A DNA stretch of 64,000 nucleotides, from the NCBI GenBank assembly GCA_024279255.1, contig JAJRRT010000066.1, forward strand, positions 1 to 64,000, in the 5' to 3' direction. Of the stretch, positions 19,374 to 39,177 are shown in pieces. Position 1 is the stretch's first letter. Each line of letters begins with the position of its first letter. Under the pieces are notes generated by a model. That model made no database searches. It was not told the origin of the DNA and was given only the letters and a program-made list of their open reading frames with translations. Source of the DNA: Deltaproteobacteria bacterium (lineage in GTDB: Bacteria; Desulfobacterota; Desulfuromonadia; Desulfuromonadales; Geopsychrobacteraceae). The translations under genes and the position numbers were made by a program.

Positions 19374-19427
19374 TTAATTAGATACGCAATAGAGGCCGCT
19401 TTTCAACTAGTAGAATTACGGGTTTTT
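19374..19427 (-). promoter_or_regulatory. Shared promoter block, copy A (efflux operon)
   Basis: Read on the minus strand it holds the box AAAAACCCGTAATTCTACTA (19427 downwards), then TTGAAA, an 18-base gap that includes CCTCTATTGCGTA, and TCTAATTA, consistent with -35 and -10 elements. Closely similar blocks stand upstream of the genes starting at 30441, 36356 and 39078. It is about 170 bases from the TolC-family start. The box carries the short inverted pair GTA-N4-TAC, as LuxR-type regulators often bind. Confidence 0.7.
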
Positions 19428-19545
19428 CAAACAAATTCAGTGTGATAATTGGCTCTCAGTTGATTTCCTTGTAGTATTTAAATACACAACATGGACGTAT
19501 TTTTATGATACTGAAGCCCGACTGAAGCAGAGGACGAAACCTTCA

Positions 19546-20157
19546 ATGTCCGCATTGCTAGCATGTCACGAATGTGACCTTCTAACTCAGCTCCCGCCAC
19601 TTCCTCCACGTGGTGCAGCCTACTGTCCACGTTGCGGCTCAGTTCTCGTACGCTCCAAGCCGAACAGCATTGAGCGGTCTTTGGCACTGACGCTGGCCAG
19701 TTTGATCCTTTTTGCTGTCGCCATCAGCTTCCCCTTTCTAGCGATGAAAACCGGCGGGTTTGAGCAACAGAGCAACCTGGTCACCGGAGTCTGGTTGCTC
19801 TATGCACAGGACATGACGGGGATGGCAACGGTGGTCTTTTTGACCTGCCTGCTCTTCCCATTGCTGCAGATTTCTACCCTGCTCTACATACTGCTGCCGA
19901 TTTATCTGAAGTACCGGGTACCGCATGCAATGCAGACATTTCGCTTCGCCATTAAATTGCAGCCCTGGTGCATGATGGAAGTCTTCATGCTTGGAATCCT
20001 GGTCTCCCTGGTCAAATTGGCCAAACTGGCGGAAATCGTACCAGGCATGTCGCTCTGGGCGTTTGCTCTGTTGATTATCACCTCCGCGGCTCAAGTAACC
20101 GTCCTCAACCCACATGAGGTCTGGGAAGCACTGGAGGTACCCAATGACTCCGATTGA
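19546..20157 (+). CDS. pqiA: PqiA-family membrane protein, first half
   Basis: 203 residues: an N-terminal zinc-ribbon pair (CHECD...CPRCG, residues 6-30) and four membrane segments. E. coli PqiA is about 417 residues and contains two such units; here each unit is its own gene, this one and the next. PqiA works with PqiB and PqiC in moving lipids or other hydrophobic molecules between the inner and outer membranes. The gene overlaps the next by 14 bases. Confidence 0.9.
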   Translation: MSALLACHECDLLTQLPPLPPRGAAYCPRCGSVLVRSKPNSIERSLALTLASLILFAVAISFPFLAMKTGGFEQQSNLVTGVWLLYAQDMTGMATVVFLTCLLFPLLQISTLLYILLPIYLKYRVPHAMQTFRFAIKLQPWCMMEVFMLGILVSLVKLAKLAEIVPGMSLWAFALLIITSAAQVTVLNPHEVWEALEVPNDSD

Positions 20158-20782
20158 GATGACGGCCAAAGGTGCGGGCATGATCAGCTGCAACAGCTGT
20201 CATATGCTTTGTCGGCCACAGCCGCTGAAAAACAACCAAAAACCCTTCTGCCCCCGCTGCGGCGCAGCCTTACATAGCCGCAAAAAGAACAGCCTCTCCC
20301 GCTGCTGGGCACTGGTGATTGCTTCCAGCATCCTTATGATCCCGGCACAGATACTGCCGATCACCATCACTTCGGCACTGGGTCACACCCAGGCTGACAC
20401 AATTGTCAGTGGGGTGATCTATTTCATGCATACCGGCATGTGGCCGATCGCCTTGGTGATCTTCGTTGCCAGCGTCTTCGTTCCCTTTTCCAAACTGTTG
20501 ATCCTGACCCTGTTGATGCTGTCCGTACAGTTGCGCTGGCGCTGGCGCCCACGAGACCGAACCCTTATCTACCGGGTAACGGAAATTGTTGGGCGCTGGT
20601 CGATGGTTGACGTCTATGTGGTCACAATACTGGTTGCCTTGGTCAAACTGGGTGCAGTGGCGACCATTGATGCAGGGCCTGGTGCCGCTTACTTCGCCGG
20701 AGTCGTCATTCTGACCATGTTTGCCGCCGAAAAATTTGATCCGCGACTGATATGGGATGCAATGGAGGATGTGAATGAGTGA
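20144..20782 (+). CDS. pqiA: PqiA-family membrane protein, second half
   Basis: 212 residues from the ATG at 20144, inside the end of the preceding gene; the frame is open back to 20114. It repeats the PqiA plan: CNSCH...CPRCGAAL zinc ribbon (residues 14-42), then four membrane segments, with KLGAVATIDAGPGAAYFA near the end. It overlaps pqiB by eight bases. The split of PqiA into two coupled genes is seen in other bacteria. Confidence 0.9.
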   Translation: MTPIEMTAKGAGMISCNSCHMLCRPQPLKNNQKPFCPRCGAALHSRKKNSLSRCWALVIASSILMIPAQILPITITSALGHTQADTIVSGVIYFMHTGMWPIALVIFVASVFVPFSKLLILTLLMLSVQLRWRWRPRDRTLIYRVTEIVGRWSMVDVYVVTILVALVKLGAVATIDAGPGAAYFAGVVILTMFAAEKFDPRLIWDAMEDVNE

Positions 20783-22475
20783 AGAGAACAATCAGCCGTT
20801 GATATCACAAACGGCTCCAAAAGCTGAGGTGAGGACCAAGCAGGGTCTTCAAGCTGTCTGGCTGATACCGCTGATCGCCCTGGTTATTGGCGGCTGGCTG
20901 GCCTACAAGGCCTTCTCCGAGAAAGGGCCTTTGATCAGCATCAGCTTTTCAACCGCTGATGGATTAGAAGCTGGAAAAACCAAAATCAAATTCAGAGATG
21001 TTGTTGTCGGCGAGGTCGAAGAAATTCTGCTGTCTGAATCATTGGACGGGGTTGTCGTGCTGGCCCGGATGAACAAGGCCGCAAAACCTTATTTGACTGA
21101 CAAAACACGCTTCTGGGTGGTCAGGGCCAGAATCTCCGCAGGGGAGGTTTCAGGTCTGGGGACGCTTTTATCTGGTGCCTACATAGGGATTGATCCGATT
21201 TTAGATGGAGCGCGAACGAAAAGTTTCACTGGTCTGAGCAAGCAGCCCCTGGTCACGGCGAATGTCCCCGGCCAGCACTATATGTTACGCACATCAACCC
21301 TCGGCTCGTTAAATCTCGGCTCACCAATTTATTATCGACAAATCAAAGTCGGTGAGGTGGTCGATTACGATTTCAGTCAAAGTGGTGAAGCCGTTGATGT
21401 CAAAATATTCATCCACGCACCGCACCATGAGCGTGTCAACTCAGCCACCAGATTCTGGAATGCCAGCGGGATCGATTTCAAGCTTGATAGCACTGGCATC
21501 AAGGTCGATACCCAATCATTGGTCTCGATCCTTCAGGGGGGGATCGCTTTTGATATGTTGCCCAGCCTGGCGGCAGAAACAGAAGTTTCTGACAACTTCC
21601 AATTTCTACTTCATCCTAACCGTGAGGCCGCCACAAAGAAAAACTACGCCATCAAGACCTATTACTTAATGTATTTCAATCAATCGGTGCGCGGTCTGGT
21701 TGCGGGTGCCCCGGTGGAATTCCGTGGTATCCCGATTGGGGAAGTTGTCGATTACAAATTGGTCCTTGATACCGACAGTCAGGAAGCGCGCATCCCGGTC
21801 CTAGTGATGATTGAACCAGAGCGCTTGGAACTATGGACCCAAGGCCAGAAAGTTGATTACCGAACTACACTAAAAGAAAAAACGGGCAGTCAGTTGCGCC
21901 CTATGCAGGAGAAGTTGCTCAAGCATGGCATGCGCGCCCAGTTGAAAACCGGCAATCTTCTGACCGGACAGCTTTACGTCGACATCGACATTTACCCCGA
22001 AGCGGAACCGATACTGGTTACCTATGAAAAGGATTATCCCATCTTCCCCACCGTTCCAGCCCCATTAGGACAGATTGCCGAAGATGTCAGCAGCATTTTG
22101 AAAAAAATCGATGCCATTCCCTTCCAAGAATTGGGTGTAAATCTGAACGAAACAATTATCACCCTCAAATCGACCCTGCAGGAATACAAAAAAGTTGCAG
22201 GCAACGTCAATCAGCAGGTTATTCCTCACTTTGGTCAAGCGCTAGCCAACATCAATAAACAGATCCTGCCGAACTTGAATCAAACGATGGAAGATCTCCA
22301 GGATACAATGGCTGGACTCAAAAAAACTGTCGGAAAAGATTCAGCACTCAATTTTAAGACCCAGCAAATTCTGGATGAGCTCACCGGAGCGATCCGCTCT
22401 ATAAGGTCGGTTGCGGACCAACTGGATCGCAATCCACGGGCGCTTATTTTTGGCCGAGGAGAATCAAAACAATGA
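20775..22475 (+). CDS. pqiB: PqiB-type MlaD-domain protein
   Basis: 566 residues: one N-terminal membrane anchor (LIPLIALVIGGWLAYKAF, about 29-46) and then three MCE/MlaD repeats (starting around residues 55, 170 and 300), followed by a long helical tail (about 440-545). MCE proteins of this kind form hexameric tubes across the periplasm for lipid transport. Gene order pqiA-pqiA-pqiB-pqiC and the four-base overlaps support a single operon. Confidence 0.93.
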   Translation: MSEENNQPLISQTAPKAEVRTKQGLQAVWLIPLIALVIGGWLAYKAFSEKGPLISISFSTADGLEAGKTKIKFRDVVVGEVEEILLSESLDGVVVLARMNKAAKPYLTDKTRFWVVRARISAGEVSGLGTLLSGAYIGIDPILDGARTKSFTGLSKQPLVTANVPGQHYMLRTSTLGSLNLGSPIYYRQIKVGEVVDYDFSQSGEAVDVKIFIHAPHHERVNSATRFWNASGIDFKLDSTGIKVDTQSLVSILQGGIAFDMLPSLAAETEVSDNFQFLLHPNREAATKKNYAIKTYYLMYFNQSVRGLVAGAPVEFRGIPIGEVVDYKLVLDTDSQEARIPVLVMIEPERLELWTQGQKVDYRTTLKEKTGSQLRPMQEKLLKHGMRAQLKTGNLLTGQLYVDIDIYPEAEPILVTYEKDYPIFPTVPAPLGQIAEDVSSILKKIDAIPFQELGVNLNETIITLKSTLQEYKKVAGNVNQQVIPHFGQALANINKQILPNLNQTMEDLQDTMAGLKKTVGKDSALNFKTQQILDELTGAIRSIRSVADQLDRNPRALIFGRGESKQ

Positions 22476-23080
22476 GATGCCTGCGCTCTATCAAGATTAT
22501 TACTGCCGCATCACTACTTGCGTTACTCACCAGCTGCAGTGGCCCACAACCGACAATGCACTTTTATCAATTGGCTCCAACAGCGCTACCCACAGCGTCA
22601 GCCGCAGAGAAGTTTCCAGATCTGGCCCTTGGAGTCGGTCCGGTCACCATTCCGGAAATGCTCAAGCGCCAGGAGATCGTTATTCGTGGGGAAGGAAATC
22701 AATATCACTTAGCCGATCTGCACCGCTGGGCAGGCTTGCTAGAAAAAGACATAACCAGGGTGATCATCGAAAATCTTGGCAACCAGCTCGGCACAGAGCA
22801 GGTCATCAGCTATCCTTGGAGCTCATACTTCGACCCGGATTATCGGATTGTCATTGAGATCCTGAACATGACGGGGCAACCGGGAGATCTGGTGACATTG
22901 AGGGCCGGTTGGACAATCGTGGATCGTTCTGGCGAACAAATACTCGTCAGAAAAATAAGTGAATTCCAGCAACAGTCCAGCGATCAGAGTTTCAACTCAC
23001 TAGTCGAAGCAGAGAACCAGTCAATCGCCCTGCTTTGCCAGGAAATCAGCAATGCACTCAAAATGCTTGATAAACAATAA
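22472..23080 (+). CDS. pqiC: PqiC-type outer-membrane lipoprotein
   Basis: 202 residues. The lipoprotein signal ends LLTSCSGPQ, and the rest matches the ABC-type transport auxiliary lipoprotein family (LGVGPVTIPEMLKRQEIVIR near residue 50, then HLADLHRWAGLLEKDI). It overlaps pqiB by four bases. PqiC is thought to dock the PqiB tube to the outer membrane. Only six bases separate it from the next gene, so the partner-switching module may share its transcript. Confidence 0.88.
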   Translation: MRCLRSIKIITAASLLALLTSCSGPQPTMHFYQLAPTALPTASAAEKFPDLALGVGPVTIPEMLKRQEIVIRGEGNQYHLADLHRWAGLLEKDITRVIIENLGNQLGTEQVISYPWSSYFDPDYRIVIEILNMTGQPGDLVTLRAGWTIVDRSGEQILVRKISEFQQQSSDQSFNSLVEAENQSIALLCQEISNALKMLDKQ

Positions 23081-23086
23081 ATCGTC

Positions 23087-23515
23087 ATGACCCCGAGAAC
23101 AGAGATGAAACTGACCGACGAATTCGAAGCACAGATTGAAAACCTTGAGCAGGTTAACGATTTTCTTGTCAGAGGTTTGGACAAAGACATTCTCAGACAG
23201 ACTGTGCTTTTTGATCTTAAACTAGCCATTGAGGAAATCTTTACCAATATCGTCAGGCACGGGCTAAAGAAGGAGCAAATTGCCACAGTTACTATTCAGT
23301 TGAGGGTTGACGAAGAATCAGTCCAGGTAGAGATCTGCGACACCGGTAAAGCGTTCAATCCGTTGACCACTGCCGATCCCGATCTTGATGTCCCCCTCGA
23401 AGAGAGAAAGCTGGGTGGGATGGGCATCTTTCTGGTGAAGCAATTGATGGATCATGTGAACTATCGCAGGGTTGAAAACATAAACATTTTGACGCTAAGA
23501 AAAAACATCGACTAA
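23087..23515 (+). CDS. Anti-sigma regulatory factor-like serine kinase (RsbW type)
   Basis: 142 residues with a GHKL/HATPase fold: N-box LAIEEIFTNIVRHG near residue 47, then ICDTGKAFNP near 85, and GGMGIFLVKQLMD near 108. RsbW-type proteins bind a sigma factor or other target and phosphorylate a STAS partner, which here is the next gene. A second ATG lies at 23105. No sigma factor gene is nearby, so the output of this switch is unknown. Confidence 0.85.
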   Translation: MTPRTEMKLTDEFEAQIENLEQVNDFLVRGLDKDILRQTVLFDLKLAIEEIFTNIVRHGLKKEQIATVTIQLRVDEESVQVEICDTGKAFNPLTTADPDLDVPLEERKLGGMGIFLVKQLMDHVNYRRVENINILTLRKNID

Positions 23516-23536
23516 CAAAATAACTAGGAGGAAGGC

Positions 23537-23905
23537 ATGTCACTATCAATCAATCGTTCTGTCAGGTCACCAAGTATTCTCACTCTCTCTGTCGCGGGCT
23601 CTCTTGATGCAAATACCTCCTCGCGACTTGAAGTTGAGGTAAAAGAGGTGTTGAAGGGTACGACAAGAAGTCTGATATTTGATTTTGAATCATTGGAATT
23701 CATCAGTAGTGCCGGTATTCGAGTCGTTCTGATGGCGCAAAAAAAGTTAAAGCTAAAGGGCGGTTCCATCATAGTGTTAAAGATGCAGCCACAAATCCGT
23801 AAAGTATTCGAAATCATCAAAGCCTTGCCGAATGCGACTGTGTTCAGCAGTGTGGAAGAGCTTGATGATTACCTTGCTGAGATGCAGAACAAATTTCAAG
23901 AATGA
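23537..23905 (+). CDS. STAS-domain anti-sigma factor antagonist (RsbV type)
   Basis: 122 residues, single STAS domain. The motif SLIFDFESLEFISSAGIRVV (about residues 43-62) contains the serine normally phosphorylated by the kinase partner. The start follows AGGAGG. With the upstream HATPase gene and the downstream RsbU-like phosphatase it forms a partner-switching set: kinase phosphorylates STAS, phosphatase removes the phosphate, and free STAS frees the kinase's target. Confidence 0.92.
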   Translation: MSLSINRSVRSPSILTLSVAGSLDANTSSRLEVEVKEVLKGTTRSLIFDFESLEFISSAGIRVVLMAQKKLKLKGGSIIVLKMQPQIRKVFEIIKALPNATVFSSVEELDDYLAEMQNKFQE

Positions 23906-23968
23906 TAAGCTCATATTCCGACAGCCGGTCGAGTTCTACAGGCAGGCTGGCAGGAGTGCGATTTCATA

Positions 23969-25036
23969 ATGGAGAATAAAATGGCCCGTCGTTTTCTGAC
24001 CTGTATTTTCCTGTTATCACTGTTGATTCAAGGCTGTGCTCAGCAAATGGCACAACAGAGCCCTCCCCTCGCGACCCTAGCTCCCACTGCAACAATCATG
24101 TCGAGTTCAACCGCCGGCACTTCCAGTCTATCGCTGCCGGAACTGTTCAACAAAGTCAGTTCTTCGGTCGTAGTGATTCAAACTGTCGAGAAAAAACTCT
24201 CGAACAAACTGAATAAAGGCAAAGCAAAGCTGGAAAGTGTCTATGGCCTTGGTTCCGGAGTTTTAATCAGTGCCGACGGTAAAGTTCTGACCGCTGCCCA
24301 TGTTGTGCATAGTGCAGATGTGGTTTCGGTCAAGTTTCAAAACGGCGAACAGGTTGCTGCCCGGGTGATTGGTTCTGCCCCTGCCGCCGATGTTTCACTG
24401 TTACAACTGGAAACGGTCCCCCAAGGGTACATGGCAGCCGTACTGGGCGATTCGGACAAGGTGCGGGTCGGGGAGAGGATCATGGTCATTGGTGCCCCTT
24501 ACGGCCTCTCAAAAACCATGACTGCCGGGTATATCAGCGGCAAAATGATTCCCAAAGATCAAAACTTCGGTTCCCAGCAAATGGAAGTTTTTCAATCAGA
24601 TGCTGCGGTCAATACCGGCAATTCCGGCGGACCAATGTTCAATATGCAGGGCGAAGTCATCGGCGTTGTCAGTTCGATCCTCTCTCGCTCTGGAGGCTTC
24701 GAAGGGATCAGCTTTGCAATCACCGCTAACACCGCCAAAAAACTCCTCCTCGACCAACCGAGCTACTGGCTTGGTATCGACGCTGTAATTCTTTCTCAAG
24801 TTTTGGCTCAGGTCCTCAATGTCCCTGGTGAATCGGGGATATTGATCCAAAGAATCGCCGAGGGATCAATTGGCGATCAAATGAGTCTAAAACCTGGGGT
24901 TATTCCGATAACTGTCGCCAAACAGGAGATTATTGCTGGAGGAGATATCATCGTCGAAATACTTGGAGTGCCCGTTCCGAGCGACCCGGAAAAATTGAAG
25001 GCCTATCTTGATGAGGTGCGTAAAAAGTTCCGTTAA
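23969..25036 (+). CDS. Secreted trypsin-like serine protease, lipoprotein
   Basis: 355 residues. A lipoprotein-like signal ends LLIQGCAQQ, followed by a Ser/Thr-rich linker and an HtrA-type trypsin domain. The catalytic triad is visible: His in LTAAHVVHS near residue 111, Asp in PAADVSLLQL near 141, and Ser in NTGNSGGPM near 216. The C-terminal part (about 265-355) looks like a PDZ domain that ends earlier than usual. After the TAA stop the same frame continues for 25 codons (25037-25114), with a PDZ-like ending (KALRNGKFIELGTTIK). It lies between the STAS and phosphatase genes. Confidence 0.85.
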   Translation: MENKMARRFLTCIFLLSLLIQGCAQQMAQQSPPLATLAPTATIMSSSTAGTSSLSLPELFNKVSSSVVVIQTVEKKLSNKLNKGKAKLESVYGLGSGVLISADGKVLTAAHVVHSADVVSVKFQNGEQVAARVIGSAPAADVSLLQLETVPQGYMAAVLGDSDKVRVGERIMVIGAPYGLSKTMTAGYISGKMIPKDQNFGSQQMEVFQSDAAVNTGNSGGPMFNMQGEVIGVVSSILSRSGGFEGISFAITANTAKKLLLDQPSYWLGIDAVILSQVLAQVLNVPGESGILIQRIAEGSIGDQMSLKPGVIPITVAKQEIIAGGDIIVEILGVPVPSDPEKLKAYLDEVRKKFR

Positions 25037-25127
25037 ATGAAATCGCAAGAAAAATTCACCGTCAAAGCATTAAGAAATGGCAAGTTCATCGAACTAGGGA
25101 CAACAATCAAATAGCGGAAAGAAACCT

Positions 25128-27041
25128 ATGAGCTTTCGTCGCAAACTACTGATTCTGCTTTTGGTGATCGCTCTGGTGCCCCTGCTGATCAATGGTCTGT
25201 TGCATCGAACTACGATGAGACGGATCAGTCAACAGTTGACTACCGATACCAGAGAGGCTCTGCAGAAAAATGCGACCAATCAACTGCTGACCCTGGTTAA
25301 TCATCAATCGTTACTGTTAAAAAGAGATCGCATCTTTATCTTGCAGTCGATTTTAGCTCAAGCACGGGATGTTGAAAATCTACTTGCCAATCAGAACTCA
25401 CCAACCGATGCCGAATTGGAAGAGGCTTATCTCGCGGTTCAACGCCTTAGGCCAGATCTCTTTCTTTGGCATGCAACATTTTTAGATTCGGGGCAGAATT
25501 CGGTTTTCCCAAGAGAAGCATTGTCGGCAAACGAACAGGCCGTTTGGCGCAATAAAACCAAACGGACGAAAACAATCGACTGGCAACTCGACTTCGTAAA
25601 CTCACATCTGCAGATCACTTTTTTTAGCCCTGTACGTTCCCCTGACGGAGAGCTTGCAGGTATCACGTCATTCGGACTCGACTACCAACAACTTTTCAGA
25701 GATTGGCAACTACCACATCCTTGGCAGGAACAGAGCAGACTGTTTGTCGCCTCAATCGGTCCAGCTACCAGCACAAGTCAAAAAAAACTAAACATACTGC
25801 TGGAGATCGTTGATCAAAGCACGGAACAAACTTCAGTCATTAGTCCAGAAAAACTGTTTCAATCTATGGCGTCAATTTCATCGATAAACACATTGATCGA
25901 GAAGGCAGAACCGAACAGATCTGGTTTTCTAACGACTGAGTTCGACAACAAAGAAACAATCTGGATTTATGCAACTTCGGCAAACGGAGAACCCTTTCCG
26001 CTTTTGCTTGTCCCACGCAAACTCGTTTCTTTACCAGCAAACCAAGCCGCTGATTATGTTGAAGATCAATTTATCAGCGGTTTAAAACTGACCGCCCTCC
26101 TCTCCTTTGGTGTTTTACTCTGGGCAATAATCACGGCGATATTCCGCGCCAGAGCGGTTACCAAACCATTAGCAGATTTAGCTCAGGCCGGAGAGCTGTT
26201 GTCACAAGGCGATTTCTCTGCTCATGTCAATATCAGCAGCAATGACGAGTTTGAGGAGTTGGGCAAAACCTTTAACCGCATCGGTCCGCAACTCCGGGAA
26301 CGGCAGGAGATCAAGCAGGCCCTTGCCGTCGCCCGGGATATCCAACTTCGGATTCTGCCGGCTTCAGTGCCTATTCTGGACAATTTCGAGATTGCCGCCA
26401 GACTTGACTACTGCGATGAAACCGGCGGCGACTACTACGATTTCATCAAGACTGATTCTGGCAAATGGGGTCTGGCAGTCGGGGATGTGGTCGGTCACGG
26501 GGTGGGGGCGGCCCTGCTGATGACCTCTGCAGCCGGTATCCTGCACGCAGCCATCGCCAGCGGACAGGAAAATCTGGAAACCCTTTTTTCCAGCTTGAAT
26601 ACTTTTCTCGAAAAAGATGTCGGCGACACCCGCTTCATGACCCTTTTCTTTGGCTTACTCGATCCCACCGCCGGTACGCTGCACTGGCTTTCCGCCGGAC
26701 ACGGCCCGATGCTCCTATATCGAGCCGCTACCAAATCAGTAGAGGAATTGCCAGCCACAACCATGCCTTTGGGAGTCATGGATGATGTTGAATTCAAGCC
26801 GATACACGAAGAAACCTTTTCAAGCGGAGATATGCTGGCTATCGGGACTGACGGAATCTGGGAAACCAGCAACCCTTCCGGCGAGATGTTCGGCATCGAG
26901 CGGTTTGGTCGACTCTTAACCGAGCAGGCGCAACAGTCGGCCGACAAGATTGTTTCCGAGATTCTGCTTGCGGTGGAAGAGTTCCGCGGTGAAGCTGCCA
27001 AAGATGATGATGTGACCCTGATCCTTCTAAAAGCAAAGTGA
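25128..27041 (+). CDS. RsbU-like PP2C phosphatase with membrane sensor and HAMP
   Basis: 637 residues: N-terminal membrane segment (about 7-26), periplasmic sensor region (27-315), second membrane segment (about 322-345), HAMP (about 345-400), then a SpoIIE/PP2C phosphatase domain. Metal-binding motifs include ETGGDYYDF near 437, GDVVGHGVGAALLM near 457, and GTDGIW near 578. It would dephosphorylate the STAS protein in response to an external signal. Same-strand neighbour of the protease and the AlbA fusion. Confidence 0.92.
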   Translation: MSFRRKLLILLLVIALVPLLINGLLHRTTMRRISQQLTTDTREALQKNATNQLLTLVNHQSLLLKRDRIFILQSILAQARDVENLLANQNSPTDAELEEAYLAVQRLRPDLFLWHATFLDSGQNSVFPREALSANEQAVWRNKTKRTKTIDWQLDFVNSHLQITFFSPVRSPDGELAGITSFGLDYQQLFRDWQLPHPWQEQSRLFVASIGPATSTSQKKLNILLEIVDQSTEQTSVISPEKLFQSMASISSINTLIEKAEPNRSGFLTTEFDNKETIWIYATSANGEPFPLLLVPRKLVSLPANQAADYVEDQFISGLKLTALLSFGVLLWAIITAIFRARAVTKPLADLAQAGELLSQGDFSAHVNISSNDEFEELGKTFNRIGPQLRERQEIKQALAVARDIQLRILPASVPILDNFEIAARLDYCDETGGDYYDFIKTDSGKWGLAVGDVVGHGVGAALLMTSAAGILHAAIASGQENLETLFSSLNTFLEKDVGDTRFMTLFFGLLDPTAGTLHWLSAGHGPMLLYRAATKSVEELPATTMPLGVMDDVEFKPIHEETFSSGDMLAIGTDGIWETSNPSGEMFGIERFGRLLTEQAQQSADKIVSEILLAVEEFRGEAAKDDDVTLILLKAK

Positions 27042-27051
27042 ATATTGACCG

Positions 27052-30441: not shown

Positions 30442-30524
30442 GATTTTCTCCTTCTCCCAGTAAAAGATTCTTTTAGCCTTATTCAAGCACCATATCTAAA
30501 TATTCAACAGATCAGGATACTGTC

Positions 30525-30573
30525 ACTCTAGCGTAGTAAGATTGGCAAACAACTCGTAAAACTACTGGTTTTT
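30525..30573 (-). promoter_or_regulatory. Shared promoter block, copy D (lipoprotein gene)
   Basis: Read on the minus strand: AAAAACCAGTAGTTTTACGA, then GTTGTTTGCC and, 17-18 bases after the -35-like TTGTTT, TAGAGT. It is the most divergent of the four copies, but the box (AAAAACC-GTA-N4-TAC) and its spacing to the downstream promoter elements agree with the others. Confidence 0.6.
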
Positions 30574-30605: not shown

Positions 30606-32978
30606 CTACCTTCTGCGAGACCGTCCACCGCCTCCAGATGAACGCTGTCTGGTGCTTCTAGAGCGCTTTTGGAAATTATTCGCGCGCGAGTTCCCCCGGC
30701 TGCGTTTTTTATACTCTCGATTCAGATTATTTGAGCGCCGCTGGGAATATGAGCCCTGCGAGGAATACCTGCTCCTCCCGCTGCTCAACCTGGATGAACC
30801 TGAGGATCCGGATCGAGTTCTCTGACTGTTGATATTTGAGGTAACCGACCGGGTTCTTTCGCTGATTCCAGCCCTTGACCGGGCAGAATCGGCACGCGAC
30901 TGGGCAGAGTTTCGGTCCGCAGCCGTATCAACGTCACTCCACCCTTTGCCACTGTTTTTCTGCCAGGTTTCACCTTCACGCTTGTAGACATTGCCGTCAC
31001 GACCGACATAAACATCACCATATTTATCTTTGCCAACCACGGCTCCCCGGCCGGTCCATTTGTTATAACCACCAATCGCTTTACCTCCCTTTGAGGTCTC
31101 AATAGCGCCAACGATTTTCCCCCCTTTTGAGCGGTGTCCGGCGCGGGCCCAATCGTTGCCATCCTGCACCACCGTTCGCCCCCATGAGCCATAAGGGGTC
31201 TTGCCTCCAGCCTGGGCAGCATAGCGGTTCGTATAGGGGTTATAGGCCTCTCTGGCAAAGGCATTACCATAGGGACCACTGACATAGCCGCCCCGATAGT
31301 AGGTTCCCGATCCCGGGTCATAACCAGACCATCCGGCCGCTCCGCCATGAGGGCCGTAATACCGGGCACTGTGGTAATACCCGCCGTGGTAATAGTCGTA
31401 GTGAGCTCCGCTGCCGTAGGCGTAGTAGTGCGAGTGATAATGATAATGATGGTAATGGTAGTAAGGATCGTCGTATGCCATCCAATAACCAAGACCGAAC
31501 ATAACGACACCGGTGGTCGCCACATAGGTCCCTGAATAGCCGGAAGTGTAGCCAACCACTATCGTATCCGGAGTCGAGTCGTAGACACGGACATAGGTGA
31601 CGTTGTGTTTAGGGTGGGTCGACGGGATCGTATAAATAACCAGGGGCACACTGGCACAAACCACCCAGGTCCCGGTTGGGCTGGAGGCAACGAACCAGAT
31701 CCCGTTGTGAACAGAATAATAGCGATTTTCGACACGAAAGACGCTATAGGGAGAGTTGACCGCATAATAAACGGCAGAGGAAGTCCCGTTGACCACCACG
31801 AACTCAGGATCGCCTTCATAAACCACCCTGAGTGTCGTACTTTTACGGTCCACCGTTGCCTTGCGAGGGACCGAAGCCAAAAGCACAGCCGCATCAGCTT
31901 CTGGTGTGCCAGGGATAGAACTCAGTACGTGGGCTTTTTTATGATCGGTCGGTATTTTGGCGAAATCTGTAGGCAATTTTGCTGAGGCGGCGCTCCAGGG
32001 CCCGGAAAGGCTCTTCGCACTGAACCAACGCCCGGCGGTAAGAAAGTAAATCTGCCCACTGCCGGAGTGAATAAAAATATCACTCTCGGTATTACTTACA
32101 TAAAGTAGCCTGGTGCCTTCAATCGGAGAGTAATTAGCAGCCCCCTCGGTCAGGATCAGCTCTGCCGGCTTGAGTGAGACAAGAACTTTGGGTACCTCAG
32201 CGGGCAGAAAACCCGGGATATTCTGCTTGACCACTTTCCAGTTCTTGTCATCAGGTAGTTTAAGGAAGGACTTAGGCAGCGAGGTCGCCGCCTGCCATGG
32301 ACCCTTGAGTAGATTGGTGGTCACCATCCAGCTTTGACCATGTAACAGATAGTATTTTGATGTTCCGATATCGAGCAGAATGTCCCAGTTGGTATTCACT
32401 GCGGTGAGCAGTTCGGGGACACCCGGGACGGCTTTCAGCTTTGGTTCACCCATAAACATAACTAGGGCCGCCGGTGTTTCACTGGAGTAGATCGGAGGAG
32501 GCTCAAAGTTGAGGGCAACAGCCTTGGCCTGCTCTGCAGTCCTTTCCAGTCCGGCGAGAATACGGTCCAGAGAGATCGTCATTGTCTTGCCGACAGGCAG
32601 GGAATTTTTGACTGCCTTCCGACATTTATCCGCCAACGTTTCATCGATGTTCGGAAATGTCAGCTTGGTGACTGCCAGCTTTTCGAGCAGCACAGTGCGA
32701 GAACCAAAATCGACTTCGGTGGTCGCCTGAAGATCGATTGCACCGTAATATTCTTGAGCTTTACCTTTTAGCTCTACGGCAACAGCCGCCTTACCGAGCA
32801 ACAACCCATAATCCTGCCACTCATCCAGCTGGGGCTGGTAGACAATCACCTTATTGCCGCCACTTTCATACGAACGCGGCCAGCCCTTCGTCGGCCCTTC
32901 GGTCTGTGCACAAGCCGTCCCGGCAATTAATGTAATCATCCAAACGAACAGCAAAAAGAGTTTGCAACTATGACACAT
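30606..32978 (-). CDS. Large secreted protein with Tyr/His- and Arg/Ser-rich C-terminus
   Basis: 791 residues from the ATG at 32978, with GGAG seven bases upstream; the frame is open to 33095 but the extra part lacks a signal peptide. Signal peptide ends GTACAQTEG. Residues about 20-520 are a soluble domain with repeated sections on the pattern YYLLHGQSWMVT...GPW and FLTAGRWFSA...GPW. Then comes a His/Tyr/Gly-rich tract (GHYYYG-like YHYHHYHYHSHYY near residue 540), and an Arg/Ser-rich tail from about 700. Function unknown; export and possibly metal or surface binding are plausible. Confidence 0.75.
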   Translation of the reverse strand: MCHSCKLFLLFVWMITLIAGTACAQTEGPTKGWPRSYESGGNKVIVYQPQLDEWQDYGLLLGKAAVAVELKGKAQEYYGAIDLQATTEVDFGSRTVLLEKLAVTKLTFPNIDETLADKCRKAVKNSLPVGKTMTISLDRILAGLERTAEQAKAVALNFEPPPIYSSETPAALVMFMGEPKLKAVPGVPELLTAVNTNWDILLDIGTSKYYLLHGQSWMVTTNLLKGPWQAATSLPKSFLKLPDDKNWKVVKQNIPGFLPAEVPKVLVSLKPAELILTEGAANYSPIEGTRLLYVSNTESDIFIHSGSGQIYFLTAGRWFSAKSLSGPWSAASAKLPTDFAKIPTDHKKAHVLSSIPGTPEADAAVLLASVPRKATVDRKSTTLRVVYEGDPEFVVVNGTSSAVYYAVNSPYSVFRVENRYYSVHNGIWFVASSPTGTWVVCASVPLVIYTIPSTHPKHNVTYVRVYDSTPDTIVVGYTSGYSGTYVATTGVVMFGLGYWMAYDDPYYHYHHYHYHSHYYAYGSGAHYDYYHGGYYHSARYYGPHGGAAGWSGYDPGSGTYYRGGYVSGPYGNAFAREAYNPYTNRYAAQAGGKTPYGSWGRTVVQDGNDWARAGHRSKGGKIVGAIETSKGGKAIGGYNKWTGRGAVVGKDKYGDVYVGRDGNVYKREGETWQKNSGKGWSDVDTAADRNSAQSRADSARSRAGISERTRSVTSNINSQRTRSGSSGSSRLSSGRSRYSSQGSYSQRRSNNLNREYKKRSRGNSRANNFQKRSRSTRQRSSGGGGRSRRR

Positions 32979-33025
32979 TAGGCACTCCGATACTTTTGGG
33001 GCGCTGCGCTTAAATAGACTGCTTT

Positions 33026-33062
33026 GCGCCACTGTCCAGGAATGGGCAGTGGCGCTTTTTGT
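33026..33062. terminator. Strong hairpin with T-run
   Basis: GCGCCACTGTCC/GGGCAGTGGCGC pair over 12 bases with a six-base loop, and TTTTTG follows on the plus strand. It lies between two minus-strand genes, so its T-run is on the opposite strand from the transcripts flanking it. It may still block read-through from the MscS-type gene or act as an antisense stop. Confidence 0.55.
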
Positions 33063-33084
33063 TGTTTCTTTTATGATTTCTCCA

Positions 33085-35459
33085 CTAGATTTCACCGGGT
33101 TTTGTCAGCTTCATCTTTGAACTATGTAGATGAACATCCAACTGTGGAAATGCAATGGTGATATTCGCTTCATCAAGACGCTTAACAAGCATGTGGCGTA
33201 AATCACTAGCGATAATCCGATAATCATAGGTCTCATGGACCTCGACCCAGAAGTAGGTACTGAATATCAGGGCACTGTCACCAAAATCTTCGAACAGAAT
33301 GATCGGTTCAGGTTTTTTGAGAATTTTACCGTGTTCGTCCAAGGCGTGGTCAATGATTCGTGAGACTTCACGCGTGGGCGAACCATAGGCAACACCTAGC
33401 TTCACCTGTAGACGGATCAGTTGATCGGTAAGGGTCCAGTTGACAACACTCTTCTGTAAAAACTCACTATTGGGGACCAGGATGTCGACCCCGTCATAGC
33501 GCCTGACCTGTGAGCAACGCAGGCCGATACTGACGACCCTTCCCTTGGTTCCTTCAACCTCGACCCGATCGCCCGTCTTGATCGGCCTCTCGAAAAGCAG
33601 AATGATGCCGCTGATAAAATTATTGATCAACGCCTGGGCACCAAAGCCGACCCCGATCACCAGCGCCCCGCCCATGAAGGCAAAGGCGGTTAAGGGGATT
33701 TTCACCGTAATCAGGGCAACAACCAACAAGGTAAAAATGGCAGTAATCTGCAGAAATTTCTCTATCAGCAGTGCTGAACCCGCGTCAATCTTGAATACTT
33801 TGGCTATCAAATCACTGAAACGGAACTTCAGTTGCATTGTCAGCCAGATACCAATGATCAGAATCAACAGAGCCCGGATAACCTTGCTGATGGTCACCGG
33901 ACGTTGCGCGGTTACCGGCTGCCCCTCGACAGAAATCGTATCCTCTACGACAAATAACTCGTAGTTCCAGATCACCCCAAAGAATTCTAAACTACGGTCA
34001 AAGAATCCTTGCAGCCGTTCACCAGCAGAGGCTTGCTGGCGATAATGGCTAACTTCATCCTGAAATCGCTGGGCATTGCGGGTCATGTCATCGATAGCTA
34101 CAAGCAGTTTGCTGGTAAAGTCAGCCTGTTTTCTATGCGTGACTACTTTCTGCCGAACCAGAGCCCGCTCTTTCTCAGTCAGGGTACCAGCGGTCAGTAT
34201 TTGCTCTTCGTTTAAAATCAGATTTTGCGCCAGCTTCAAATTCGAATCGATATAAGTCCGGTGTTCACGGATTTTCTCGAGGCGTTTTTTAAGCGATTCT
34301 GCAACCTGTTGCAGTTCTGCTTCGTCGCGGTTGTTGGCCAACCGGTAACGTTTTTCCCAAAAGAGCATCTCCCCCTTCATGCCCATGATCCAGATTTTCA
34401 ACAATTCGACTTTCTCAGCACTTGCATCGGCCTGAACCTTGCGCGTTTCGACCAGTTCCTGAAGATAGTTAATCACCTCAGTTTGCCCATCCTCTTTCCC
34501 CGGTTCGGACAGAGCTTCGCGGGCTTGCTGCAAGCTATTTCGGGCTTGATGCAGCTTTTCCTGATTTCGATTGTTGTCCCTGATTGCCCGTCGCTTCTCT
34601 TTCTCCAGAGATTTATTTTTTTGCCCAGCGGTGAAAGTTTTTGATCAAGCTCTTTCTTGCTGAAGGTCGCGTCGGTCACAGCGACCTGAAGTTGGCGTTC
34701 AAGAAAGGTTCTCTGCTTATTGTATAAAGAGAGGGATTCATCGACTGCCTGCAGCTGAGCTTTGCTGGCCAGAACATTAAGCTCAGCCACCGCGTTTTTA
34801 AGTTTAGCAAGTTCATGTAACCAATTCGCACGAATTTGGTCATCCCCAGTCACAGGTTTCTCAAGGGACTCTCTGACCTTGCGGAGTTTTTTTTCCGAGG
34901 AGACCAGAGATTTAAGCGCTTCGTCCTGTTCCAGCTGGATCAGTGCTATTCGGACACCGTCCTTTGTAATGGCCAGGGATTGGGCATGAATAGAATCACG
35001 CAGTTCATCAACCAGACTGATCGGGTATGGTGGATCTTGAGTAAAACCTTGCCAGGCTTCACTTTTTGCCACCAGATCTTCGTTGGCTAAGCGGATCTCT
35101 TCAAGTTTACTTAGGTTTTCGATATTTTTGCCGTACAGAAATACGCGGGAAAGAAGTAAAAACTGTTTCTCCTTGGCCTCTTCCGTGGTCGCTCCAAGTT
35201 GTTCGGGAGGGGTGTTTTCCAAAACCGGTTGGGCGCTGTTTAAACTCTGCCGAGCCTTCGCCTGAAGTTGTTGTAGACGTTCTAATAGCTGCTCAGTTGT
35301 CTCGATTTTCTCAGTCTTCTGTTCTTCCTGTTCAGCCTGGATGATATTTACGGGAAGCTGACCCCAGGCGGAAGACGGGGGCATAACCAGCAGAATCGAA
35401 ACGGCCAGAAGAGAAAATATATCTATTATTTTAAATCTAATACGGAGTGGAACTTTCAT
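33085..35459 (-). pseudogene. MscS-type mechanosensitive channel split by a frameshift
   Basis: Two minus-strand frames overlap and join into one protein of about 790 residues. The 5' part (35459 down to about 34620) gives a signal peptide ending SAWGQLPV and a long coiled-coil region up to SPLGKKINL; the 3' frame (open from 34533 to 33085) gives the rest of the coiled coil, the MscS membrane segments (about FAFMGGALVIGVGFGAQ) and the C-terminal cytoplasmic domain. They differ by one base at a run of seven T on the plus strand (34616-34622), i.e. AAAAAAA on the mRNA. Either an extra A or a -1 ribosomal slip at this heptamer restores SLEKEKRRAIRDNNRNQEKL. So this is a frameshifted gene, a sequencing error or a programmed slip. 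Confidence 0.75.
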
Positions 35460-35515
35460 TTTTTCTCCGTTATAGGGGTATCCCACCAAAAATAATCGTC
35501 GGAGAGTTCACTCAT

Positions 35516-35917
35516 TTAGTTTTCTGATTTTTCCAGGCGAGCAGTGACAACTCCAAAGGAATCAATGACATAGATCAGCTTCATGATCCGACCCTCACTT
35601 GCCACAGAATAATCATGGGGGAGATCCAAAGTCACCTCTCTCTTGACCCCAGCACCATCACGCCAACTGACAGTCGCTTTTCGAGCCAACATCGGTTGCC
35701 CCGAAAAGCCTATGTCCAAAGACTTCTGCGGCAATATCGCATTGACTTGGGCAGACTTGCGTGTGGGTTCATGGAAAATCCTCACATCAGTGATCTTGCT
35801 ATCCGTCGCATTCAGGACAATGGCCCGCTCAAGCAGGACATGCGGCTTGGCGCAGCCCGACATCAAGAGGAGCAGAATAAGAGTGCCGAGTGAAGCCAGG
35901 CCACAGAGGTGCTTCAT
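35516..35917 (-). CDS. Small lipoprotein
   Basis: 133 residues from the ATG at 35917, which follows AGGAG; the frame is open to 35986. The lipoprotein signal ends LLMSGCAKPH. The rest (ATDSKITDVRIFHEPTRKS, then a beta-rich ending) is a small periplasmic domain of unknown function. It lies 10 bases downstream of the stand-alone receiver gene and may share its transcript. Confidence 0.72.
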   Translation of the reverse strand: MKHLCGLASLGTLILLLLMSGCAKPHVLLERAIVLNATDSKITDVRIFHEPTRKSAQVNAILPQKSLDIGFSGQPMLARKATVSWRDGAGVKREVTLDLPHDYSVASEGRIMKLIYVIDSFGVVTARLEKSEN

Positions 35918-35927
35918 GGATATGCTC

Positions 35928-36356
35928 CTAAAGTTCATTTTCAAAATTGATCGCCGGTGACACATAGGTTCTGCCTTTCTGTACATCCAGAACAGCAGGA
36001 ATCAGGTCATTAATCGCCGACCGTTTAAGTACAAACCCCATAGCCCCAGCCGACAGGCAGGCATCGACAACTGTCTGCTCATCGTGGACACTCAGGATAA
36101 GTATTTTCAGATCCGGGAATTTTTTTCGCAGTTCCTGCGTAACGTGAAGTTCATCAGTGATCGCCAGGGACAGATCGACAACAACCAGGTCAGGAAGAAC
36201 TGTTTTTAGTGAATCGAAGAGTGAAGCCTTATCGGCGACCATCAGCACCACATCGAAAACCGATTCCAATAAAGTCCTGATGCCTTCGAGCATATTCTGA
36301 TGACGGTCGGCAATCAGAACACGACTGATCTTTTCTCCCACCGCTTGATTTTCCAT
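35928..36356 (-). CDS. Stand-alone response-regulator receiver protein 1
   Basis: 142 residues from the ATG at 36356 (frame open to 36404). The protein is a single receiver domain with no output domain: SRVLIADRHQNMLEG, phosphoacceptor Asp in LVVVDLSLA near residue 62, LILSVHDE near 90 and Lys in GFVLKRS near 112. The usual acidic pair (ADDH) reads ADRH, so Mg binding may be altered. It is a close paralogue of the receiver at 38650-39078. A shared promoter block lies 56-110 bases upstream of its start. Confidence 0.87.
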   Translation of the reverse strand: MENQAVGEKISRVLIADRHQNMLEGIRTLLESVFDVVLMVADKASLFDSLKTVLPDLVVVDLSLAITDELHVTQELRKKFPDLKILILSVHDEQTVVDACLSAGAMGFVLKRSAINDLIPAVLDVQKGRTYVSPAINFENEL

Positions 36357-36411: not shown

Positions 36412-36465
36412 TTAAATTAAATACGCGGCAGAGGCTGGTTACAACTGGTAGAATTACGGGTTTTT
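36412..36465 (-). promoter_or_regulatory. Shared promoter block, copy B (receiver 1)
   Basis: On the minus strand: AAAAACCCGTAATTCTACCA, then GTTGTAACCAGCCTCTGCCG and CGTATTTAATTTAAG, with a plausible -35 (TTGTAA) and -10 (TTTAAT) 17 bases apart. The same block stands upstream of the efflux operon, the second receiver and the DUF3313-like gene. Confidence 0.75.
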
Positions 36466-36619: not shown

Positions 36620-38011
36620 TTATTCGTATCTGAGCGTATCCAAACCAGCAAAAAAATAACGGCTGGATGCTACTTCCAACTCATGTTTTAAATGCTCATC
36701 CTCGCGTCCGGCAATTTCAGTATAAAAACCATCTGCCATCGGTCTGAAAACATCAAGGATTTTTGGATCAAAGTGGCTACCTCTCCCCTCTTCAAGGATC
36801 TGTAGCGTTTTTTCAAAGGTGAACGGTTGCTTGTAGGGACGCCGACAGCAAAGGGCGTCAAATACATCAACTACGGCAAAAATCCTTGCCGCCAGGGGGA
36901 TATCATCACCCGCCAGCCCCGCCGGGTAGCCACTGCCGTCATATTTTTCATGATGACCGGCGACCACATCGGAAGCCGCACTCAGCCAGCTTGAGGAGGC
37001 AACCAGATCAACCCCCGTAGCAACATGTTCAGGCTGCTGGTCGCATAACCATTCCGTTCCGGAAACGATCTCAAACCCAAGGTTCACATGGGTTTTCATC
37101 ACTTCAAACTCAGCTACATCCAATTTGGCGGGTTTCAGCAGGATCTCATCACGGATGCCAATTTTGCCTATATCATGTAGGAAAGCACCGAGGACCAGTT
37201 TCTGAATCTTGACTGCTGGCAGGCCAAGTTCTTCCGCCACTTGAATCGCCATGAGGGTGACGCGATAGTTGTGTGCACTGGTATCACTGTCTCGTTTGGC
37301 GATGGCGCTACCGAGGGTCCGGACAGTTTCCAGGTGGGACTCCAGAAGGTCTTCGGAATAACTTGCCAGGCGGCGAGTCAGGGAGTGGATCACCGGATAG
37401 AGGATCGCTGCGGTAACCAGCACGATCAGGGCGACCCACAGAGCGGTTTTAATCGCATTCTGCCTCAGGTCGGCTCGTACTGCATCGGAGAGGGTAAAGA
37501 TCCCTTCAGCGTAGGCGACCAACTGATCGTCATGGTTGTTGATCGGAACGATCAGATGAATATAGAGCCGCTCGTCGATACGGATGATCTGCTGCCAGGG
37601 TTCTAGACCGGGAAAGCGCTGCGGTGTAGCCCCAAGACGACGGTGAAGCTGAATCTTGGTGATCTCAGGAGTTACCGATTCAGCGAAGTTCTCCCCGTTT
37701 GGAGTATAAAAACGGGCATAGGAAAAGTGGCCAAGATAGCTCTGCAGCTTAGCGGATTTCAACATCTCAAGGGTTTGACGAAAGACATCTGCCGGTTCAG
37801 CACCTGTCTCTTTCAGGTTGGCAAGGGTCTGGGTACGCAAGATACTGATCCGGTTGAGGGCGGTTTCCATAACCATGTTGCCGACCCGATCTCGCTGGGT
37901 CACAAAAACAACCACCGCCAGGAGCACTGCAATCAACAGAGCGGCCAAGACCACTCGCAACGCAAGAATTCGGTAGACGTAGCTGCGCAAACTGTGTCTC
38001 TGGTTGGCCAT
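36620..38011 (-). CDS. HD-GYP phosphodiesterase with membrane sensor
   Basis: 463 residues: an N-terminal membrane segment (about 12-34), periplasmic sensor (to about 190), second membrane segment and a cytoplasmic HD-GYP domain. The metal motifs HDIGKIGIRDEIL near residue 283 and HHEKYDGSGYP near 345 are intact, so hydrolysis of cyclic di-GMP is likely. It lies between the two paralogous receivers on the same strand, which suggests shared signalling. Confidence 0.92.
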   Translation of the reverse strand: MANQRHSLRSYVYRILALRVVLAALLIAVLLAVVVFVTQRDRVGNMVMETALNRISILRTQTLANLKETGAEPADVFRQTLEMLKSAKLQSYLGHFSYARFYTPNGENFAESVTPEITKIQLHRRLGATPQRFPGLEPWQQIIRIDERLYIHLIVPINNHDDQLVAYAEGIFTLSDAVRADLRQNAIKTALWVALIVLVTAAILYPVIHSLTRRLASYSEDLLESHLETVRTLGSAIAKRDSDTSAHNYRVTLMAIQVAEELGLPAVKIQKLVLGAFLHDIGKIGIRDEILLKPAKLDVAEFEVMKTHVNLGFEIVSGTEWLCDQQPEHVATGVDLVASSSWLSAASDVVAGHHEKYDGSGYPAGLAGDDIPLAARIFAVVDVFDALCCRRPYKQPFTFEKTLQILEEGRGSHFDPKILDVFRPMADGFYTEIAGREDEHLKHELEVASSRYFFAGLDTLRYE

Positions 38012-38173
38012 ATTGGTTCATCCTTGTAGCAACCCGATCGCAAGTGGCCACCTTATGAACATCTATTTTGCCCCCTTACACTCAAACTATACGGCAAAAA
38101 GATGCGCATCACCGCGACACGCTCAAGTGAGATCAAAGGTGGATCATGTATATGATTCCATTTCCGTATCTAG

Positions 38174-38449
38174 TCATGTCGAGGTAACGATACGCACATT
38201 TTCAATCACGTTTTCTGGAACTTTGGGTGGAGCAGGATTAACTTCTATTTTCAAGATACTCTGTATGGGGATGGCCAGCAGTCGGTTGGCTGAGGTCTTA
38301 AACACAAGCACATTTGATTGCAGTGCCCTTTGAAGTCTTTCAACATTCGCATGTTGACCCTCTGGTGAGTCGTCCCGTAAAAAAATCAATTCTTCCTGCT
38401 CCCCATTTACATAGTGGATTATCGCACCACCCAGAGTTTCTTGTGTCAT
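38174..38449 (-). CDS. Small hypothetical protein
   Basis: 91 residues, MTQETLGGAIIHYVNGEQEE..., no signal peptide or cysteine motif. The ribosome site AAAGGAAG precedes the ATG. It lies between the HD-GYP gene and the second receiver on the same strand. Function not recognised. Confidence 0.65.
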   Translation of the reverse strand: MTQETLGGAIIHYVNGEQEELIFLRDDSPEGQHANVERLQRALQSNVLVFKTSANRLLAIPIQSILKIEVNPAPPKVPENVIENVRIVTST

Positions 38450-38649
38450 AGCATCTTCCTTTCTAAGCTCAATTAAACACTCTGACCGGCCTGCACTGCT
38501 ATCTCCCCAAGCTGGTCGACATCTTCGACTACAGCGCAGAAGTGTCTTATATATGATTTCAACCTAATCGTTCTTTGATGCCCCTATTGCTCCACCCTGA
38601 GTTATGGCGCTCATCATCAAGTATTGACGGTTGTCACGCCTACCGGTGA

Positions 38650-39078
38650 TCAGCCTTCAGGATTGATCGTTGGCGACACGTAGGTTCTGCCTTTCTGTAC
38701 TTCCAGCACAGCAGGGATCAGGTCATTAACCGCCGTCCTTTTGAGGACAAACCCCATGGCCCCTGCAGCGAGGCATGCATCGACTGCTGTCTGTTCATCG
38801 TGGACACTCAGGATGATTATTTTCAGGTTCGGGTGCTTTTTGAGCAGCTTGCGGGTCACGTTCACTTCCCTGGGGAGCGGTATGGACAGATCGATGACGA
38901 TCAGATCTGGGACAGTCGTGGCCAGTGAATCGAAGAGAGAAGTCTCATCTGCGACCATCAGAACCACATCAAAAAGCGGTTCCAGCATGGTCCTGAGGCC
39001 TTCAAGCATATCCTGATGGCGGTCGGCAATCAGCACACGGCTGACCGAACCTCCAATCTTTTTATCTGGCATGGGCAC
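38650..39078 (-). CDS. Stand-alone response-regulator receiver protein 2
   Basis: 142 residues, a near duplicate of the receiver at 35928-36356: SRVLIADRHQDMLEG, LIVIDLSIP, IILSVHDEQTAVDAC and GFVLKRTAVNDLIPAVLEV are shared almost throughout. The acidic pair is also ADRH. No output domain. A second in-frame ATG lies at 39072. A shared promoter block lies 46-99 bases upstream. Partners could be the adjacent histidine kinase or the HD-GYP protein, but that is inference. Confidence 0.87.
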   Translation of the reverse strand: MPMPDKKIGGSVSRVLIADRHQDMLEGLRTMLEPLFDVVLMVADETSLFDSLATTVPDLIVIDLSIPLPREVNVTRKLLKKHPNLKIIILSVHDEQTAVDACLAAGAMGFVLKRTAVNDLIPAVLEVQKGRTYVSPTINPEG

Positions 39079-39123
39079 ATCCCTCTTCTGGGTGGGTCAT
39101 CAAGGGTAGTGTAGATTCGTTCT

Positions 39124-39177
39124 ATAATTAGATACGCGATAAAGGCAGGTTTTCAACTGGTAGAATTACTGGTTTTT
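39124..39177 (-). promoter_or_regulatory. Shared promoter block, copy C (receiver 2)
   Basis: On the minus strand: AAAAACCAGTAATTCTACCA, GTTGAAAACCTGCCTTTATC, then GCGTATCTAATTATAG. TTGAAA and TCTAAT are 18 bases apart and can act as -35 and -10. The match to copies A and B is nearly base for base over about 50 bases. Confidence 0.75.

Follow-up and report, generated by a model that had tools for sequence, protein, structure and literature searches.

Four copies of a block of about 50 bases on the minus strand of a 64,000-nucleotide stretch of a Deltaproteobacteria bacterium genome (contig JAJRRT010000066.1, positions 1 to 64,000; hereafter the window) are probably the operator-plus-promoter of a local regulon, controlled by class II activation through the histidine kinase and response regulator pair encoded at 39309-41143; the probability of this reading is put at about 0.82. 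The regulator (39309-39950, minus strand) belongs to the LuxR/NarL family, has a receiver and a GerE helix-turn-helix domain, and is the proposed binder of all four blocks, which start at positions 19427, 30573, 36465 and 39177, lie no more than 22 kb from the pair and share the core AAAAACC(C/A)GTA(A/G)TT(C/T)TAC(N)AGTTG. Block A (19374-19427) consists of an operator at 19404-19427 and the -10-like hexamer TCTAAT and precedes an efflux operon; its score is 35.6 bits with a matrix of 10 sites, block A among them. Block B (30525-30573; operator 30550-30573, -10-like TAGAGT) precedes a DUF3313 lipoprotein gene and has the operator alone in common with A, C and D. Block C (36412-36465; operator 36442-36465, -10-like TTTAAT) is located before orphan receiver 2, and block D (39124-39177; operator 39154-39177, -10-like TCTAAT) in the interval that separates the regulator gene from orphan receiver 1. 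The same site is found beside the same regulator in about 20 other genomes of the phylum, including that of Desulfogranum marinum. The site, its confinement within the genome, its co-occurrence with the regulator clade, its place and its distance to the -10 element are computed results. The regulon is new, and the two-component system is of a type already known.

An earlier note on this DNA had described the four minus-strand blocks, and the core is present at every one of the positions that it gave: a 24-base pattern, AAAAACCMGTARTTYTACCAGTTG, matches the window four times at up to three mismatches and matches none of 100 dinucleotide shuffles. The genome as a whole (3,534,386 bases in 108 contigs, 91% complete) contains 25 matches to the 18-base core at up to three mismatches, of which the only four exact ones are blocks A to D, all in the window, and the other 21 have three mismatches; the reversed core, used as a control, gives 30. 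The blocks are tied to gene starts, as had been claimed, in that each points to a gene on the same strand and none lies within an open reading frame (ORF) of more than 120 amino acids in a non-overlapping set; the end of block B overlaps the mechanical plus-strand ORF 30121-30531 by 7 bases. Start codons were picked by Shine-Dalgarno match or by alignment of homologues (GTG 19235 for the outer membrane efflux protein, ATG 30441 for the DUF3313 lipoprotein, ATG 36356 and ATG 39072 for the receivers). The position shortly before starts stands with altered figures, 75-170 bases from box to start having become approximately 138, 83, 55 and 51 bases from block end to reassigned start codon for A to D. 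To call the four units unlinked was misleading, as all lie within 20 kb on one strand. Base composition, looked at for horizontal transfer, is 50% G+C in the region of the blocks, which is inside the range of the remaining window.

The architecture of the site was derived from 45 sites from the fetched loci, picked by operator score alone, so that the -10 peak played no part in the choice; they are drawn from 50 listed sites, and those left out scored below 17 bits, lay 60 bases or less from a better site or were incomplete. One of the 45, in locus L145 (17.0 bits), is taken as a chance match, the regulator being on another contig, and is still counted. Bases 0-23 give the consensus AAAAMCYCGTAATTTTVCGAGTTG and a second peak at bases 44-49 is TTTAAT-like and AT-rich, with 0.39-0.90 bits. 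Information is low at bases 25-36, no more than 0.37 bits per base, and bases 37-42 form a weak pyrimidine-rich stretch of up to 0.68 bits. The dyad has its centre between bases 12 and 13, at a near-constant distance of about 31 bp to the -10 element; the copies in the window differ by one or two bases. If bases 44-49 are the -10 element, the dyad would be centred near -43, which is the class II position; class II activator sites are positioned over the -35 region at a near-constant distance to the -10. Of the 50 listed sites, 47 are outside ORFs of more than 120 amino acids, and the remaining three are located in an upstream extension of a receiver ORF (L136:10351) or in opposite or overlapping mechanical ORFs (L144:1937 and L213:5219).

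This architecture revises how the promoter elements had been described. TTGAAA and TCTAAT are both present in A and D, but B has TTGTTT and TAGAGT, and C has TTGTAA and a TTTAAT that lies one base nearer. Their spacing is not strictly fixed either, the spacer of C being one base shorter and the -10-like hexamer of the window copies starting at base 43 to 45. The reading of TTGAAA as a promoter -35 is not supported, given the low information content of bases 25-36: this hexamer is not conserved, and its TTG forms the outer end of the operator's right half-site. The inverted pair GTA-N4-TAC is indeed present, but a better description of the window site is an imperfect 20-bp dyad, AAC-N2-GTA-N4-TAC-N2-GTT. 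An ordinary family of sigma-70 promoters, alike merely in -35 and -10 elements, would explain why A and D have TTGAAA and TCTAAT; it is highly improbable in view of a conservation that is dyadic and reaches about 20 bases further upstream, of a -35 that is not conserved, and of a core that at up to two mismatches occurs nowhere else in 3.53 Mb. The dyad could also be the site of the same regulator acting as a repressor, the bound protein blocking polymerase over the -35 until a signal releases it, and the overlap of the site with the -35 region and the fair TTGAAA of A and D would suit such an arrangement. It is nevertheless unlikely, because with no conserved -35 in the 45 sites polymerase would be without an anchor when an activator is absent, and because the centre keeps its near-constant, class II-like distance from the -10.

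Identity between copies beyond the promoter elements, which had been claimed for all four, holds for A, C and D, whose spacers (bases 25-42, best of three registers) are 0.67-0.78 identical in pairs, and fails for B, which matches each of them at 0.33-0.39. Between genomes, 947 spacer pairs average 0.38 in identity, with a maximum of 0.94, and for shuffled pairs the 99th percentile is 0.56; similar pairs within one genome are found in G149, G187, G265 and G268 (0.61-0.72). Because of this spacer identity, which B does not share, A, C and D are most simply read as apparent copies of one promoter, B sharing the operator alone, and C and D, which precede receivers 71% identical to each other, are to judge by their sequences a duplicated promoter-gene pair. 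Repeats devoid of regulatory function that spread by duplication of promoter-gene segments would leave much the same picture of alike spacers in A, C and D and of duplicated receivers behind C and D; this is scarcely credible where B and the sites of distant genomes have kept the operator and the -10 only, within a diverged spacer. Two kinds of site in one genome are suggested, whole copied promoters (A, C and D) and a lone operator in unrelated sequence (B).

The evidence for the regulator comes mainly from other genomes. A search of the genomes of 84,980 species with the regulator returned 20 loci, the best being that of D. marinum (48% identity), which was thus reached via the regulator and not via the site. 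Its gene order is kinase, regulator and orphan receiver (50% identical to receiver 1), and the gap between regulator and receiver contains AAAACCCCGTAATTTTCCTAGTAC and an AT-rich element at the same distance as in the window. This site had been missed by the first pattern, ACCMGTARTTYTACCAGTTG, at up to three mismatches and by a scan for GTA-N4-TAC; it was noticed by eye and then scored with a matrix. Run against 257 genomes of the order of D. marinum, a receiver profile of three rows led to further close orphan receivers in G220, G137, G265 and G149. Upstream of these four and of the D. marinum receiver (L071-L075) a matrix built from the four window copies scores 17.8, 28.1, 16.2, 18.5 and 24.1 bits, and a second G149 site 23.0 bits, with runner-up scores of 7.5-13.4 bits in the 3.4-kb receiver loci.

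Among the same 257 genomes a broadened 22-base pattern at up to one mismatch matches 42, and a ten-row regulator profile (E <= 1e-75) matches 18. The box is present in 16 of the 18 regulator-positive genomes against 26 of the 239 regulator-negative ones (Fisher p 1.9e-12), and in its exact form in 10 of 18 against 1 of 239 (p 1.6e-12), that one being G182, where the regulator is fragmentary at a contig end. Apart from the exact match in G182 and two in G309, the regulator-negative genomes have one match each at one mismatch, and these matches are regarded as background because a reversed-pattern control, counted by hand, matches 46 of the 257 genomes. In the order to which the window belongs, no block of the exact type was found at up to one mismatch in 135 other genomes; with the broader pattern, exact matches are confined to the window genome (four), and nine of the 135 others have a single match at one mismatch. 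A family-level scan at up to two mismatches gave one or two scattered matches in nine other genomes, which were dismissed as chance. A phylum-wide sample of 395 genomes contains 11 with the regulator, comprising that of the window, five already in the set of 257 and five new ones (G505, G533, G684, G729 and G756). On plasmids, 2124 records match the regulator query, and among the matches listed the best has 42% identity and none reaches 60%.

The regulator has the NarL/FixJ layout (Pfam Response_reg 8.6e-27, GerE 3.9e-16) and an intact phosphorylation pocket, with D9, D10, D53, T81 and K103 invariant in a 10-row alignment. The domains of both proteins, the adjacency of their genes and a dyadic site with GTA/TAC cores are shared with NarL/FixJ systems that have HisKA_3 kinases, from which the system differs in that its regulator scores below the curated cut-offs of the listed NCBIfam models: MctR is best with 156.7 against a cut-off of 300, UvrY/GacA has 128.2 against 280, and among the 25 of 114 matches listed no cut-off of a named response regulator is reached (MctR, UvrY/GacA, FimZ and NarL being among the families considered). 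The study of response regulator targets in Desulfovibrio vulgaris likewise concerns a sulfate reducer, one in which a few regulators are of the LytR and NarL families, and in the accessible part of that source no such operator is described (PMC3333781).

In a 49-row tree that leaves out the fragmentary G182 regulator, 25 regulator orthologues form one side of a branch with a support of 100/99; the window regulator itself is on a long basal branch, and the tree program warns of long branches, chiefly among the paralogues. A site of at least 17 bits lies within 1.5 kb of the regulator in 16 of the 25 orthologues, six of whose loci had supplied training sites for the matrix, versus 0 of the 24 paralogues (31-40% identical), among which the highest site score is 15.1 bits. 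In four Omnitrophota paralogue loci (L048, L050, L051 and L055) weak sites of 10-14 bits lie no more than 1.5 kb from the regulator; their core, GTAGTTT, may be an older, shared one. The assignment of the block to the LuxR/NarL-type regulator at 39309, which the earlier note had proposed, is strongly supported by this comparison of genomes as the probable one. Another regulator that travels with the gene cluster might bind the block instead, the association then being one of neighbourhood, and an HTH_19 protein is encoded in the window at 43494-43919. On a comparison of the loci that covered the kinase and regulator genes, this is improbable, given that the HisKA_3 kinase gene adjoins the regulator gene in the window, that the orthologues of both are adjacent in 19 fetched loci, and that the orthologues form one group, outside which the paralogues lack the site.

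Fourteen loci that had given the matrix no training site were scored within 1.5 kb, with 20 shuffles each, and in eight of them the best site exceeds all 20 shuffles (L200, L202, L203, L191, L192, L183, L188 and L189). The sites of L200, L202, L203 and L191 are on the strand of the regulator match and begin 50, 94, 17 and 32 bases beyond it, with scores of 11.7, 18.7, 12.7 and 17.7 bits, respectively, against shuffle maxima of 9.7-10.8 bits. In L206, L207 and L208, which are longer versions of L202, L200 and L203, an orphan receiver that was recognised only afterwards follows directly after the site, so that the order regulator, box, receiver of the window is repeated in all three. A box directly past the regulator gene, as with block D, recurs in other genomes.

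A number of observations weigh against control of the blocks by this regulator. The dyad of the window is symmetric in just 12 of 20 bases, and the kinase gene at 39998-41143 has no box in front of it in the scanned window. Six of the fourteen held-out loci have no site above all shuffles (L195, L198, L184, L187 and L181, with a tie in L179); in longer versions of L195 and L198 (L204 and L205) a box is found 6-7 kb from the regulator. L207 and L208 have weak sites of 11.7 and 12.7 bits, under the 16-bit limit of the site listing, and two regulator-positive genomes, G184 and G319, have no box at up to one mismatch, weaker sites being seen. In the 17.6-kb D. marinum locus (L047) the four-copy matrix gives the site 17.8 bits and a match within the kinase gene 17.3. 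Three further D. marinum matches at 19 of 20 bases (L068:1501-1520, L069:13-32 and L070:13-32) are in repeat copies, one of which adjoins an ORF that resembles a reverse transcriptase (by eye, group II intron-like); as operators these matches in intron-like elements were dismissed as coincidence. The limits of 17 bits and 1e-75 were the analyst's own choice. The co-occurrence in the 257 genomes is partly circular, because 12 genomes served to design the pattern and ten regulators, drawn partly from the same genomes, to build the profile; in a weaker test limited to regulator-positive genomes outside the pattern design, 6 of 8 have the box against 25 of 238 (p 5.9e-5).

It is proposed that the phosphorylated NarL-family regulator binds, as a dimer, to the imperfect 20-bp dyad centred near -43, where it would overlap the -35 position and recruit sigma-70 RNA polymerase to a promoter that has a -10 element only. 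The regulon that would be turned on in this way comprises the RND efflux unit with MlaA, the DUF3313 lipoprotein, and the two orphan pseudo-receivers with downstream envelope genes; a feedback from these pseudo-receivers to kinase or regulator is a guess. We infer from the genomes the binding by the regulator, activation over repression, the extents of the operons and any signal. Class II promoters of the lux-box type are similar in having the site near -43 over the -35 region and a -10 only. The differences lie in the gap between the GTA and TAC halves, 6 bases in the lux box and 4 here, and in the regulator, an autoinducer receptor there and a response regulator in the present system.

Orphan receiver 1 (38650-39072) and receiver 2 (35928-36356), both on the minus strand and with reassigned starts, are pseudo-receivers in which the acidic pair reads D-R, and they belong to a set of ten orphan receivers in nine loci, all ten of which have a box upstream, a weak one in L207 and L208. 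The second acidic position is non-acidic in nine of the ten (V, C, T, I, R, R, K, T and R, those of L206, L207 and L208, K, T and R, having been aligned by eye); L144, truncated by the end of its contig, and two reading frames that were duplicates are not in the alignment. In the accessible part of a study of pseudo-receivers, direct metal binding is ascribed to the second residue of the acidic pair, and about 80% of pseudo-receivers have a non-acidic residue there (PMC12632262). Nine of the receivers here share this feature and are classed as pseudo-receivers because of it; the tenth, in G149, keeps D-D and is so classed because it has Gly at the Ser/Thr position. That position is Ser in eight of the set and Gly in G149 and L208, and the L208 receiver has lost the first acidic residue too. 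Unlike the pseudo-receivers covered by that part of the study, those here stand alone and keep the phospho-acceptor Asp and the Lys in all ten. A receiver is present in nine of ten loci outside a 15-row subclade of the regulator tree to which the arylsulfotransferase loci belong; inside this subclade, the ten longer loci examined have none. As a tentative and rather doubtful suggestion, the NarL-type regulator might, in a conserved circuit, switch on via its own operator a stand-alone pseudo-receiver, similar to the receiver of the regulator itself, that acts as a poorly phosphorylatable decoy, binding the kinase or the regulator and thereby damping or reshaping the response. If this is true, the receiver would, on the regulator tree, be an old part of the system.

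The kinase of the window (39998-41143, minus strand) has PAS, HisKA_3 and HATPase_c domains by Pfam and no membrane segment by hydropathy. Hydrophobic segments are absent from the kinases of six receiver-bearing loci (the window, L047, L135, L136, L137 and L140), those of L206 and L207 have two, and that of L208 has one (a 432-residue ORF, perhaps cut). In loci where no receiver was found the kinase has none (L209), one (L204) or two or three such segments (the other nine). An assumed rule that a receiver in the locus always goes with a kinase lacking membrane segments was abandoned, since it is true in six of nine loci. In the window, the kinase gene has a Mu-type transposase gene (45057-47279) about 4 kb upstream of it.

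All remaining genes of the predicted units are on the minus strand. Behind block A lie genes for an outer membrane efflux protein (17604-19235), a membrane-fusion protein of an RND pump (16410-17516), an ACR_tran RND transporter (13284-16388), an Ion_trans_2 potassium-channel-like protein (12567-13253), an exported protein with a weak alpha/beta-hydrolase resemblance (11223-12491; E 0.04 or worse) and an MlaA-family lipoprotein (10447-11226), with which the efflux unit is taken to end. Locus L138 of G149 has a comparable arrangement of a box, a DUF4136 gene and then genes for homologues of the efflux protein (59% identical), the fusion protein (57%), the transporter (74%) and the channel (44%). 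The DUF3313 lipoprotein gene behind block B (29779-30441) is followed by a terminator-like hairpin at 29760-29730. Behind block C, receiver 2 is followed by a small 156-residue protein with a lipoprotein-like LMSGC signal (35516-35986; 50% identical to L138:15199-15600 of the box-bearing G149), an exported protein of no assigned family (34473-35489) and, by domain match, an MscS-type mechanosensitive channel (33085-34533). Unit C may or may not also include the next gene, which encodes an 829-residue exported protein with no Pfam match and a C-terminus rich in Gly, Tyr and Arg (30606-33095). Homologues of this protein are found near boxes in G149 (62%) and G220 (45%), and in L138 homologues of the 829- and 156-residue proteins lie further upstream. 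A hairpin of 13 pairs with a T run on the plus strand (33026-33055) is situated just past the MscS stop, in the mechanical start of the 829-residue ORF. An HD-GYP domain protein with two membrane segments, in which HDIGK and HHEKYDGSGYP are read (36620-38011), is possibly co-transcribed from block D across 638 bases. Between blocks A and B (19546-28668) lies a box-less plus-strand set with PqiA-like, MCE, ABC_trans_aux, HATPase_c_2, STAS, protease, SpoIIE phosphatase (with HAMP) and AlbA_2 genes.

At other loci the genes that follow boxes in the same orientation encode an arylsulfotransferase (L212), a sulfatase (L204), an MFS transporter and an FAD oxidoreductase (L131), Phenol_MetA_deg outer membrane proteins (L131 and L213), DUF3604 (L135), Ysc84 (L137), DUF1254/DUF1214 (L209) and, 863 bases after the box, DUF3300 (L206). 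Target types do not separate receiver-bearing from receiver-less loci, because the receiver-bearing D. marinum locus also contains a sulfatase.

No description of the regulon was found in the literature searched, where papers matching six operator strings were unrelated by title and start of abstract, no paper linked arylsulfotransferase, response regulator and Desulfobulb, and none paired any two of sulfatase, DUF3604, DUF1254 and DUF2092. For a so far undescribed two-component system found in sulfate-reducing bacteria and their relatives, the analysis supplies a predicted operator, a promoter design and a list of targets across about 20 genomes, and the roles of the orphan pseudo-receivers and of the efflux, sulfatase and arylsulfotransferase targets become directly testable.

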